A stretch of 64,000 nucleotides of DNA from Limnohabitans sp. Rim8 (lineage in GTDB: Bacteria; Pseudomonadota; Gammaproteobacteria; Burkholderiales; Burkholderiaceae_C), in NCBI GenBank assembly GCA_945897795.1, contig CAMDFT010000003.1, positions 23,578 through 87,577 of the forward strand. The letters run 5' to 3'. Shown in pieces: positions 19,433 through 24,613 of the stretch. Positions within the stretch are counted from its first letter, which is position 1. Every line of letters starts with the position of its first letter. The notes below the pieces were generated by a model that did no database searches, was not told the DNA's origin, and saw only the letters and a program-made list of their open reading frames with translations. Both the position numbers and the translations under genes were made by a program.

Positions 19433-20452
19433 TTAAGGCTTTGCCAAAACTTGGAGCTCAGGGTAGTCTTTGGCCATCTGCGCACCATAAAGTGGCTTGA
19501 AAGCACCCTGATGGCAGGTTGAGCAATTGACTTTGGCCACATCCCCTTTGGCACCTAAACGATGCGCTGGGAAGGTATCGGTCAGGGGTGTCATGAACTC
19601 ATTGTTCAATTCACGCGCCATCCGAATGCCATACCAAGAGGTTACCCGTTGCGGCCGGGACTCCTCCCAGGATTGGAAGTTGCGTGTGTTGTGGCAGTAA
19701 GTACAGTTCACACCCAAGGACTCGGACATGTGCACCATCAAGGAGTAGGTGTACTCAGCTTGCTTGGTCGATGCACGGTTGGCGTTGGAGCCCACACCTG
19801 CCATGGCTTCATTGCCGTTGACCCGGATGGGCGCAGCGTCTTTGAGGTAAGGCGTGAAAGGATCAAACGGCAGCGATGACAGTCCAGCCGCTTTGGTGGC
19901 AATGTTTTGCCCGGCCAAATCGCCCAACAAGCTGTTCGCATACTTGCGGTCTTTGGGCGCATTCCAAACTTGGGTGGGCACGTTGTTGCCACGGTGGCAG
20001 GTGTAACACGTCACACCCGTATCCGCCACGTGGGTTTTCCAGTCTTGATTGACTTTTTGGGTCATTTCAATCATTCGCCTGGCCACCACCTTGGTGTACA
20101 TGCTGTCATCTGCAAAGTTTTGAACGTTGTGGCAGTAAGCGCAGCCCTGATCGGGTGCGACCCATTGCGTGATGGCCGCCATTTGACGGTTGAATTGGCC
20201 CACACTCAAATCTCCCAGAACCTTCACGTTCTGATAAACCTCACTGGCTTTGGGACCCTCCGCCGAAGCGGCTTCTGCCGCGACAGGCGCTTGGTTCAAA
20301 GCGGCTTCCTTGGCCAAGGTTCTGGGGTTGTAGATTTGCTCCATGCCCGTTCCACGGTAACCTGTTTGGACCGTTTCAATCGGCGGCCGCTCACAGCCCG
20401 ACAGCAGCACGGCGGCACCTAGGCAAAGCGCTAATTTAGACAAAAATTTCAT
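19433..20452 (-). CDS. pufC: Photosynthetic reaction centre tetraheme cytochrome c subunit
   Basis: Four CxxCH motifs (CAYCH, CYTCH, CTYCH, CSTCH); lipobox LLSGC; ATGA overlap with pufM. Confidence 0.97.
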
Positions 20453-21423
20453 GGCTTCACTCCCATCAATGCAGGATCAAGGACGACTGGGCTGACCAAG
20501 GGATAGGCAGGGACCACATGGTGTTTGACCGACCACAGGTACCAGTTGTCCACCACGGGGCCAGTCAACAAGATACCTACGCCGCCGACCAAAGGACACA
20601 GCACGGCAAACCACCAGGCCCAACGGTGGATGGACTCCATCGTGGCGTTGAAGCCCATGGTCCAGCGCCAGAACAAGCCGGCACGCTCAGAGGCGGTCCC
20701 GCGGTCCACAATTTGCTCGATCTCGCGTTCTCCGCCATACCGCGTCACCGCCAAAATGGTGGCGCCGTGCATGGCAAACAGCAGAACCGAGCCGTACAAG
20801 AAGACGATCGACAGCGCATGGAATGGGTTGTAAAACAAATTGCCATGACGCAGCGACAAGGCAGACACCCAGTCCAGGTGAGGGAAGATGCCAAAGGGCA
20901 CCGCCTCGGACCAACTGCCCATCATGATCGGACGGAAAAAACCGCACACCAGATACAACCAAATGGCTGCCGCATAAGCCCACGCCACATGCGTTCCCAG
21001 GCCCAATTGACGAGCGCGTCGGTAGGTTCTCGCCCACCACAGCATGATGGACATGGTGAGCATGAAGCCAACAATGAGCCACCATCCACCCTGCTCAAGG
21101 GGCGGAATACCTAAACCATAAGCAGGAGGCGGTGGCTCCAGCGCAAGCCAAAACAACTGACGCACCAACTGAATGGGGTTCCAGTCAACGGACGCCAACA
21201 TATTGAAACCAATGATGTTGAAAGCGGCGATGCCGAAAATCAAGGAAGCAATACCCAGCGTTCCTAAATAAACAGGACCGATTTGGGCATTCCCGATGCG
21301 CCCCAAGAGGTGCACCAAAAATGGTTTACCCGTTCGCTTGTCGTCCCCGCGGGGCAATTCAACGCCGTCGTGCAAGGGCCCTACAGGCTGCACAGAGGTG
21401 AAAAGATTTTGATATTGAGACAT
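20449..21423 (-). CDS. pufM: Photosynthetic reaction centre M subunit
   Basis: 324 aa; [52 protein letters not shown]. Confidence 0.98.
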
Positions 21424-21444
21424 TTCAATTTCCTCTCTTTTTAA

Positions 21445-22272
21445 TTAAGTGCGCCAGATGGGCATGTTCAACCACCAGCCCCACCACTCGGGCCAAGCTC
21501 CGGTCCAAAATGGGCCGCTGACCACAATGCAGACAATGCCGAACCAAACACCTGCGAGCGCCAAAAACAAGCCCAACCGGTGAATGCCCAAGGTGCCCAC
21601 CGAGTACCCGATCAGGTCACGAAAGAACGTGTCTTCATGTTCCGGCGACTTCACGGTCTGGCCTTTTCCAGGGTTGGTGGCTGACAGCACCAAGCCACCG
21701 TGCATGGACAGCGCCAGCACCGTTGCAAAGAAAAAAGTCACAGCAATCATGTGCCATGGGTTGTAGTGAAAATGCAGGTACTGGTAAGCGGTGTTGCTCA
21801 CCCAATCCAAGTGGCTGTAGATACCGTAGGGGAAAGCATGTCCCCAAGCCCCCATGAGCACGGGACGCACCACTTGCAAGCTGAAATAGGCCAAGATGGC
21901 CATGGAAAAGGCCACAGGCACATGCAAGCCCATGCCCAATTTGCGGCAAATCTCAACTTCTCGAAGTGCCCACGAGACAAATGCGCCCAAGGCACACACC
22001 GTGATGATTTGCCATAAGCCGCCTTCCATCATGGGGGCAAAACGCAGCCCATAGGAGAGGTCTGGCGGTGCGATGTTGATTTGCCAGATATTCCAGGTCG
22101 GCCCCATGGCCGCGCCCCACAAAATCAACAGGGTGCCCGAAAGGGCAAAAAACAAGGTTGTGATTCCGAAAAATCCAACGTAAAAAGGACCGACCCAGAA
22201 ATCAAACAGGTCGCCCCCAAAAAGGGTACCGCCGCGCACACGGTATTTGCGTTCAAAACTTAACATGGACAT
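21445..22272 (-). CDS. pufL: Photosynthetic reaction centre L subunit
   Basis: [60 protein letters not shown]. Confidence 0.98.
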
Positions 22273-22328
22273 GGTTGCATCCTCCGACCGGGTGACTGTT
22301 TGTGAGGTCTTGTAGGCTTCAATTTTTT

Positions 22329-22375
22329 AAAAAAAGGACAGACGTACCGTTCAATGCGAGCGATGTACGTCTGTC
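22329..22375 (-). promoter_or_regulatory. pufA-pufL intercistronic hairpin with T-tract (partial terminator / mRNA stabiliser)
   Basis: 11-bp perfect stem GACAGACGTAC/GTACGTCTGTC at 22337-22347 and 22365-22375, followed in the minus direction by CTTTTTTT. Confidence 0.8.
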
Positions 22376-22395
22376 TGAATAAAGACCAAGGGTCC

Positions 22396-22593
22396 TTACT
22401 TTTGCGGCAAAGCCGCGTTCTGTGGCTGGACTCTCGCCGCTGCGGACTTGGCCGTATCGGGATGCCAGCTGTTGATGTTGTACCGATCGCCACTGATTTG
22501 AATCAGGTGAATCGATGTTGAAACAAAGGCAATCAACAGTCCAACTAGAACAATTGCCTTGCGGGGGTCTATAACACGCCACATGCGCCACAT
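22396..22593 (-). CDS. pufA: Light-harvesting 1 alpha polypeptide
   Basis: MWRMWRVIDPRKAIVLVGLL...SIHLIQISGDRYN, canonical LH1-alpha. Confidence 0.95.
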   Translation of the reverse strand: MWRMWRVIDPRKAIVLVGLLIAFVSTSIHLIQISGDRYNINSWHPDTAKSAAARVQPQNAALPQK

Positions 22594-22607
22594 AGTAATT
22601 TCCTTTC

Positions 22608-22832
22608 TTAACTCAATTGAGAAATAACGGTATAGACAGAAGACTTCACGCCGTCCAAAGTGCTCGTAGAACCTTCTGCGCCAGGAAGCCAGTTACGCCA
22701 GTCAAGGACCAGCAACTGCCCCGCCACAGCGAGCGCCATAAACACTAAAAACAACAAAACAAAAGTTATCCCATAACCATCAAAATGGTCATGAGCTTGA
22801 ACCGTTGTCATGCGATTGTTCGGGTGGGTCAT
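22608..22832 (-). CDS. Unassigned 74-aa single-TM protein encoded between pufB and pufA
   Basis: ATG 22832 preceded by GGAGATAAGC RBS; MTHPNNRMTTVQAHDHFDGYGITFVLLFLVFMALAVAGQLLVLDWRNWLPGAEGSTSTLDGVKSSVYTVISQLS; in-line with the operon, tight spacing on both sides. Confidence 0.85.
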   Translation of the reverse strand: MTHPNNRMTTVQAHDHFDGYGITFVLLFLVFMALAVAGQLLVLDWRNWLPGAEGSTSTLDGVKSSVYTVISQLS

Positions 22833-22855
22833 GCTTATCTCCGTTGAATGGTTTT

Positions 22856-22999
22856 TTAGAACCAGGGACGCCAGATCCACACCAAGCTGTGGGCGAAAAA
22901 AGCCCCGACAGCCCACAACAGGTAACCCTGTATGAAGTACTGGTGGAACTCTTGGGCCTCTTGGTCTGTCAGCCCTGACGGGTTAGCTGCATCAGTCAT
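22856..22999 (-). CDS. pufB: Light-harvesting 1 beta polypeptide
   Basis: MTDAANPSGLTDQEAQEFHQYFIQGYLLWAVGAFFAHSLVWIWRPWF, canonical LH1-beta with the ligand His and terminal WRPW. Confidence 0.95.
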   Translation of the reverse strand: MTDAANPSGLTDQEAQEFHQYFIQGYLLWAVGAFFAHSLVWIWRPWF

Positions 23000-23062
23000 A
23001 GTTTGTGCCTCTTTCAATATGCCTTTCGGCAATTCCCTGAACCCTTGCGAGCTCAGGACGGA

Positions 23063-23088
23063 CTGTTGCGGCTTTGACACCGCAACAG
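23063..23088 (-). promoter_or_regulatory. bchZ-pufB intercistronic hairpin
   Basis: 9-bp perfect stem CTGTTGCGG/CCGCAACAG with 8-nt loop, no T-tract. Confidence 0.65.
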
Positions 23089-23146
23089 GTGGACCCCCGG
23101 CCAGGCCGAAGGATTGAACGGGCCACCGAATTCATGCGCACATCTT

Positions 23147-24613
23147 TCATGCATGTGCTCCTTCATTCGCTTTTCCGAACAATTCTGTGAATCTTTCTGC
23201 TTCGACATGAGAGCGGCCGGTTTCCCGTGCATCTCGCTCCGCTTGATCGCGCATGCGTTTGGCTGCTGAAATTCGCACCAATACAGGTTGCTGTTCCAAC
23301 AAAGCATCTAACCTGTCTTGCGCCTCTGGCTCCCACGGCACGGTGGTGTTGGGCGCAGACCGGCCCAGGGTGCCTTCGATCTTGTCCATCTCTGTGCCCA
23401 AGGGCAAGATATGGAAAAGTGCATCGAAGAGACCGTTGCAAAACTCTTGGATGATGTAAGTCGCGCCTGCATAGCCCATGAACGGCGTGCCAGTGTGACG
23501 ACGAATGATTGGCAAGGGAAAACTGGCTGGGATGAAGCTGGTTTTCATCATCCCGCCACCGCCGCACTCGGCCAAATAGATACGCTCGTTGTAGCTGCCG
23601 TACAAAATGAGCGGCGTTTTTTCGGTGACCAGTTTGCGAACTTCTGCGTTGTCTGTTTTGGCACCCGCTATGCGCGCGATGGCAAAGTTGCAAGGCAGGC
23701 CCATCTCGTCTTCCAAGAAATGACGAATGCCGCGCGTGTAGGTTTCGTTGGCCACCACACCAAAGTTGGCGGTGCCAAAAAAGTCTTGCGTCACAGACCG
23801 CCACAAATCCCAAATGGGTTTGATGGTGCTGTGCTTTTCTCTTTCGATGAAAGGCTCTGGATCGAGGCCAAGCAACTCACCCAAAGAGCGCAGGAATTTG
23901 GTGGTACTGTGCAAACCGATGGGCGCTTGCAAATAAGGACGCTCTAAGGCTTCGCACAACATGCGGCCGAATTCGCGGTACATGCAAATGTTCACATCGG
24001 CCTCGACCAAACGCGACACGTCGGCAAGGTGTGAACCCAGCGGAAAGACCATGTTGACGTCTGCACCAATGCCTTGCACCAATCGGCGAATTTCAGCCAA
24101 ATCGCTGGGGCAGTTGAAGGTGCCGTAACTGGGCCCAATGATGTTGACGCGAGGACGCTCGCCCTCTTTGCGCTCACGCTTGGGCACATGCTTGATGCCG
24201 TACTGCTGCCAGAGCCAATACATGGCTCGGTTGGCGCATTGCCATTGGTCTTCGTCGATGGTGCGCGGCAAGAATCGTTGCAGGTTGGTGCCCTCGGGCG
24301 TGACGCCACCGCCAATCATTTCTGCAATCGAGCCCGTGACCACCACGGAGGGCAGATCGGGATTCAGTGTGGCGTGCGCACGGCGCATGGCGCCTTCGGT
24401 GCCTTCACGACCCAATTGTTCTTCTGCCAAACCCGTCACCACAATCGGCAGCTCATGGGGTGGCAGGGCATCGGTGTAATGCAGCACCGATGTGACAGGC
24501 AAGTTCTCGCAGCCCACGGGGCCGTCAATGACAACTTGCAAGCCTTTGATGGCGGTGAACACATACACCGCACCCCAATAGCCGCCTGCGCGATCGTGGT
24601 CAAGAACTAGCAT
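23147..24613 (-). CDS. bchZ: Chlorophyllide a reductase subunit Z
   Basis: [62 protein letters not shown]; overlaps bchY stop. Confidence 0.96.

Follow-up and report, generated by a model that had tools for sequence, protein, structure and literature searches.

A histidine-less protein encoded between pufB and pufA in phototrophic Burkholderiales, probably a divergent LH1 beta paralogue

The stretch of DNA analysed in the present study (hereafter the window) comprises 64,000 nucleotides from Limnohabitans sp. Rim8 and carries a puf operon on the minus strand, in the order bchZ, pufB, ORF74, pufA, pufL, pufM and pufC (Table 1). An earlier reading made from the sequence alone had drawn attention to ORF74, and the coordinates, start codon, ribosome-binding site and gene order from pufB to pufC that it gave all agree with the window sequence. 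ORF74 lies 23 bases from pufB and 14 bases from pufA, bchZ ends at 23147, and the Shine-Dalgarno (SD) sequence of ORF74 is no weaker than those of pufB and pufA (anti-SD energies of -5.8 and -5.6 kcal/mol, respectively). The PufB of the window scored 38.8 bits with Pfam LHC and 71.8 bits with NCBIfam pufB_517_ASD. The translation of ORF74 bears out a single transmembrane (TM) segment without histidine: one hydrophobic segment was observed, no His lies inside it, and Gln39 stands at the ligand position. The AlphaFold2 monomer, a model of low confidence (pLDDT 64), consists of a long helix at residues 8-47 and a low-confidence helix at 62-73, and a Foldseek search with this uninformative single helix gave no matches. 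The C-terminus, previously described as amphipathic-looking, is so only weakly (hydrophobic moment 0.3-0.4, with the low-confidence helix) and not strongly. In the 87%-complete assembly (G000), whose puf region corresponds to 19433-23000 of the window, no second LHC gene was observed above the Pfam cut-off, and for this reason no LH2 genes were seen there. A peripheral antenna has been reported for Limnohabitans planktonicus (PMC12654162).

Table 1. Features of the puf operon in the window (positions of the window, 5' to 3' on the forward strand).
Feature	Position	Strand	Remarks
ORF74-type gene, 74-aa His-less LH1-beta-like protein	22608..22832	(-)	74 codons; translation MTHPNNRMTTVQAHDHFDGYGITFVLLFLVFMALAVAGQLLVLDWRNWLPGAEGSTSTLDGVKSSVYTVISQLS
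ORF74 protein parts			TM spanning roughly residues 21-44; residues 45-74 form the conserved C-terminal segment WRxWLPGAE..GVK..VYT.IS
ORF74 Shine-Dalgarno region CATTCAACGGAGATAAGC, 5' of the ATG	22833..22850	(-)	anti-SD energy -6.6 kcal/mol
pufB, LH1 beta	22856..22999	(-)	47 aa; short, with no C-terminal extension; carries the His ligand
pufA, LH1 alpha	22396..22593	(-)	65 aa
pufL, reaction-centre L	21445..22272	(-)	
pufM, reaction-centre M	20449..21423	(-)	
pufC, tetrahaem cytochrome subunit, in place of pufX	19433..20452	(-)	four CxxCH motifs
bchZ-pufB gap, where other purple bacteria have pufQ	23000..23146	(-)	147 bases; without PufQ-like ORF

ORF74 recurs in the same slot among the close relatives of the window, at 30-96% identity. 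A profile built from eleven members was used for a search of GTDB genomes, which gave 253 encoding stretches; 80 of these were examined, with records named Limnohabitans, Rhodoferax, Rubrivivax, Piscinibacter, Hydrogenophaga and Polaromonas among them, and the family considered herein comprises 118 distinct sequences. Plasmid homologues were also searched for, and none were found. In a survey of 400 Burkholderiales genomes, 49 encoded reaction-centre proteins, and 48 were assessable after one that ends at a contig edge had been set aside. The order pufB-ORF74-pufA was observed in 40 of the 48. Three others (G093, G213 and G244, all of one genus and with a short beta) lack ORF74 and have a PufQ-like ORF upstream of pufB, and the remaining five (L137, L138, L140, L141 and L147) carry a single extended, His-bearing PufB and neither ORF74 nor a PufQ-like gene. 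Genus g38 has members in the extended-beta state as well as members in the ORF74 state. The tails of the five extended PufB proteins (e.g. GVKAAVNSFMPYVFMA) resemble ORF74 and, weakly, PufQ-like tails. A very divergent ORF74-like protein with a PufQ-like end (RKAANSVIPLMFM) occupies the pufB-pufA slot of G076 (L139, 479-712) and forms a long branch in the tree described below.

Several features of the 118 sequences, together with the conserved slot, show that this is a conserved gene, well beyond what chance would give. First, residues W45, R46, P50, G51, A52, E53, V62, V66, S71 and F28 are near-invariant, the length is 74 aa in most members, and the C-terminus follows the near-invariant pattern WRxWLPGAE...GVK..VYT.(I/M)S. 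Second, the median pairwise dN/dS is 0.32 for ORF74, compared with 0.11 for pufB and 0.08 for pufA, and it falls along the protein from the N-terminus (0.44) through the TM (0.29) to the C-terminus (0.24); ORF74 is under purifying selection, weaker than that on the antenna subunits. Third, all 108 distinct loci scored begin with ATG, and the SD sequences are strong on the whole, with medians of -9.1 for ORF74, -8.0 for pufB and -5.6 for pufA. The conserved residues, length, dN/dS and initiation signals therefore indicate a protein gene whose C-terminal half is the most important. A decaying pufB duplicate or a non-coding spacer with no present function might be proposed instead, given a dN/dS roughly threefold that of pufB and the lack of any function assigned in the literature; this reading is largely refuted by the length of 74 aa in most members, the C-terminus kept near-invariant over many families at a dN/dS of 0.24, and the strong SD sequences of the 108 loci, and we consider it extremely improbable.

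The sequence-only reading found no convincing match to a named family, and in this respect it has to be revised. The single ORF74 sequence matched LH1 betas among PDB chains (8z81_B, E 9e-9; 7xxf_B, 3e-7), and the ORF74 profile matched the extended betas 8z81_B (E 6e-15), 7xxf_B (1e-12) and 9m8m_B (6e-12) in phmmer/hmmsearch comparisons; the alignments run through the tail and place Gln39 opposite the His ligand of beta. No PDB chain closer to ORF74 than ordinary betas was found in the profile search. In profile-profile comparison, ORF74 scored 99.3% against the extended beta (E 5e-20, full length), 96% against the short beta and 0.3% against LH1 alpha (hhalign), which excludes a duplicate of PufA. 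The homology to LH1 beta over the TM and the C-terminal WRPW region holds at the profile level; the single sequence reached 10.6 bits, below the cut-off, with Pfam LHC (PF00556), and a search of NCBIfam, including pufB_517_ASD, gave no match. In a maximum-likelihood tree of 75 columns, ORF74 forms one clade (100/99), except for one long-branch row, and this clade stands beside the extended betas of Burkholderiales that have no ORF74 (85/79), a placement that leans partly on the shared tail. The ORF74 tail profile gave 13-27 bits with Burkholderiales extended betas, at most 11 with other extended betas and at most 8 with shuffled tails. The tree and the tail scores therefore point to a product of extended-beta duplication in Burkholderiales and not to a moved pufQ. 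We are confident, from these sequence comparisons, that ORF74 is a divergent paralogue of LH1 beta from the extended (about 75-aa) beta lineage. It has kept the beta TM and the C-terminal extension and has lost the BChl-ligating His, with the co-encoded pufB as the short, pigment-binding form. Like the extended LH1 betas of Rhodopila globiformis (7xxf_B) and 8z81_B, ORF74 shows full-length homology, the same TM frame, the WR-W-P motif and the tail; unlike them, it has lost the ligand His and the N-terminal EFH motif, is far more divergent and is encoded beside a normal short PufB. A strong match to a characterised puf-encoded family, which had been named as evidence against a new subunit, was thus half found, since the protein is homologous to PufB and is without the ligand that defines PufB.

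The residue at position 39 bears on whether ORF74 could still bind pigment. Among the 118 members, 95 (about 80%) have Gln, 8 have Lys, 6 have Thr and 2 have His, and Asn in a few as well as Leu, Ser and Gly were also observed. The two His-bearing sequences come from loci under the name Curvibacter (L068 and L070), in which the ligand has been retained or regained. W48, which we take to be the beta Trp at +9 beside the pigment in standard LH1 numbering, is retained in 105 of 118. Gln and Asn are able to ligate the Mg of (B)Chl in other proteins, and together with this Trp the predominance of Gln, with Asn or His in some members, would agree with an auxiliary beta whose residue 39 coordinates BChl in a small number of alpha-ORF74 pairs with altered absorption. 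However, in the remaining members the site is occupied by Lys, Thr, Leu, Ser or Gly, so that ligation is not a conserved function of ORF74, and the EFH motif conserved at the N-terminus of beta is lost as well. An auxiliary antenna function is accordingly improbable.

A relation to PufQ also has to be considered. With the ORF74 profile, small His-less ORFs were also recovered from other purple bacteria, in which they sit in the pufQ slot, and a PufQ-like profile found further ORFs, for example in Candidatus Thiodictyon, where it is annotated as hypothetical, and in many other genomes; one PufQ-like ORF matches Pfam PufQ below the cut-off. Such ORFs lie upstream of pufB in several lineages, namely in L134 (445-678) and L204 (2120-2344) and, on the minus strand, in L166 (1060-1347) and L178 (1501-1731; both with coordinates on the reverse complement). 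By profile comparison the PufQ-like group scored 90% (2e-7) against true PufQ, 98% (1e-13) against the extended beta and 98.3% (1e-13, full length) against ORF74, similarities that are partly selected because most PufQ-like ORFs were found with the ORF74 profile. Neither PufQ nor a PufQ-like gene accompanied ORF74 in any of the 107 distinct ORF74 loci with a visible upstream slot, and this mutual exclusion suggests either overlapping roles or simply lineage replacement. Strict compensation, in which an extended beta dispenses with any His-less protein, holds in the Burkholderiales sample and fails outside it, where extended betas occur alongside PufQ-like genes.

PufQ binds ferrochelatase (PMC5725709), and ORF74 might be its equivalent: a protein with one TM that directs porphyrin towards BChl or hands over pigment while LH is being assembled, without being a stoichiometric ring subunit. 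This explanation would account for the mutual exclusion and for the PufQ-like ORF in the three short-beta Burkholderiales without ORF74, and it draws further on the chain of profile matches from ORF74 through the PufQ-like group to true PufQ. PufQ and the PufQ-like ORFs also resemble ORF74 in being puf-encoded, of similar size, with one TM and without a ligand His, and the C-terminus is the most conserved part, as reported for PufQ (PMC5725709). Nevertheless, the true PufQ of Rhodobacteraceae gave 1.3% against the ORF74 profile (hhalign), no direct match, and Pfam PufQ (PF05398) matched none of 11 ORF74 members; the match between ORF74 and the PufQ-like group is biased by the way in which the PufQ-like set was found; the tree separates the PufQ-like proteins from the betas and ORF74 (99/98), with ORF74 in a clade of its own; five Burkholderiales have neither gene; and the slot differs, being inside the pufBA segment and not between bchZ and pufB. 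Simple orthology with a relocated PufQ was rejected on the tree and the lack of a direct match, and the wider proposal of a PufQ-type function is one that we entertain and lean against. Scored with the PufQ-like tail profile, ORF74 tails reach a median of -0.5 bits and are hardly detected, so that it is only through the extended betas of Burkholderiales that the data suggest a tail module common to PufQ, ORF74 and beta. With the PufQ-like ORFs as a bridge in profile comparison, PufQ may belong to the LH beta superfamily.

The ORF itself is not new and is already on record, although as an ORF only. In Roseateles depolymerans, ORF74 (RD2015_RS05155) sits between pufB (RS05150) and pufA (RS05160), is co-transcribed with both in the major 1-kb puf transcript, in line with the co-expression that the sequence-only reading had predicted for the window gene, and is with them one of the three loci most dependent on the sigma factor SP70 (PMC10037100). 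In Rubrivivax gelatinosus, ORF2 lies directly upstream of pufA without an assigned function; after a comparison with alpha (PufA2), its authors decided against a derivation from that subunit (PMC12817894). Family members of about 74 codons were observed between pufB and pufA in loci named Rubrivivax or Piscinibacter (L098, L101, L099 and L102). From the slot, the length and these members we identify the window ORF with the Roseateles ORF74, and from the slot and the Rubrivivax-named members it is probably also ORF2. In both reports the gene is named merely as an ORF, whereas here it is recognised as beta-like. ORF74 shares with PufX, protein W and PufY (protein U) the logic of a small, single-TM, non-antenna subunit of RC-LH1, a comparison that the sequence-only reading had drawn while seeing no convincing sequence match. 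PufX is indeed excluded, since there was no Pfam match at E<=10 and pufC, not pufX, follows pufM; no chain of protein W or PufY/protein U was among the PDB matches of ORF74 in a PDB search, which was the comparison made for these proteins. As far as the literature consulted shows, it is new that ORF74 can be assigned to beta, that it has lost the ligand, that it is nearly ubiquitous among phototrophic Burkholderiales, that it and PufQ are mutually exclusive, and that it derives from an extended beta.

A role of ORF74 in RC-LH1 is plausible. The most likely reading, at about even odds, is that ORF74 serves the RC-LH1 core as a pigment-poor "odd beta" with a structural or assembly role; a PufQ-type role is the main rival. 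As an odd beta, ORF74 would be made together with beta and alpha from one abundant mRNA, probably at the level of LH1 synthesis, would insert N-in/C-out in the manner of beta, and would take up, or bind next to, one or a few of the beta positions of RC-LH1. Its tail (WR-WLPGAE and GVK-AVYT-S) would contact the neighbouring alpha/beta or the RC-cytochrome, and these contacts would set ring closure, the quinone gap or the assembly of the ring. A tail of the same kind is present on all betas of a solved 16-member ring (16 chains, 7xxf) and is therefore compatible with a ring position. The higher dN/dS of ORF74 relative to pufB and pufA counts against the odd-beta reading, as does the fact that, to our knowledge, closed LH1 rings need no subunit of the ORF74 type, and a PufQ-like role would explain just as well why ORF74 and PufQ-like genes exclude each other. 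Herein, we also put forward a more specific and decidedly tentative proposal, which we think rather doubtful as a whole: ORF74 would be a stoichiometric, low-copy "blank beta" in the LH1 ring of Burkholderiales and the first beta-derived ring-organising subunit, having arisen when an extended beta was split into a short pigment-binding beta and a His-less tail carrier, with PufQ having branched off earlier within this beta superfamily.

If the odd-beta or assembly reading holds, an unassigned subunit of the core complex or of its assembly, listed only as an ORF since 1994, is present in most phototrophic Burkholderiales, abundant freshwater genera among them. Identity as a blank beta would give concrete questions, namely whether ORF74 is in the ring and whether the ring is opened by it. 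Moreover, the role of PufQ is disputed, and a place for PufQ in the beta superfamily would bear on the evolution of pigment delivery and antenna assembly.
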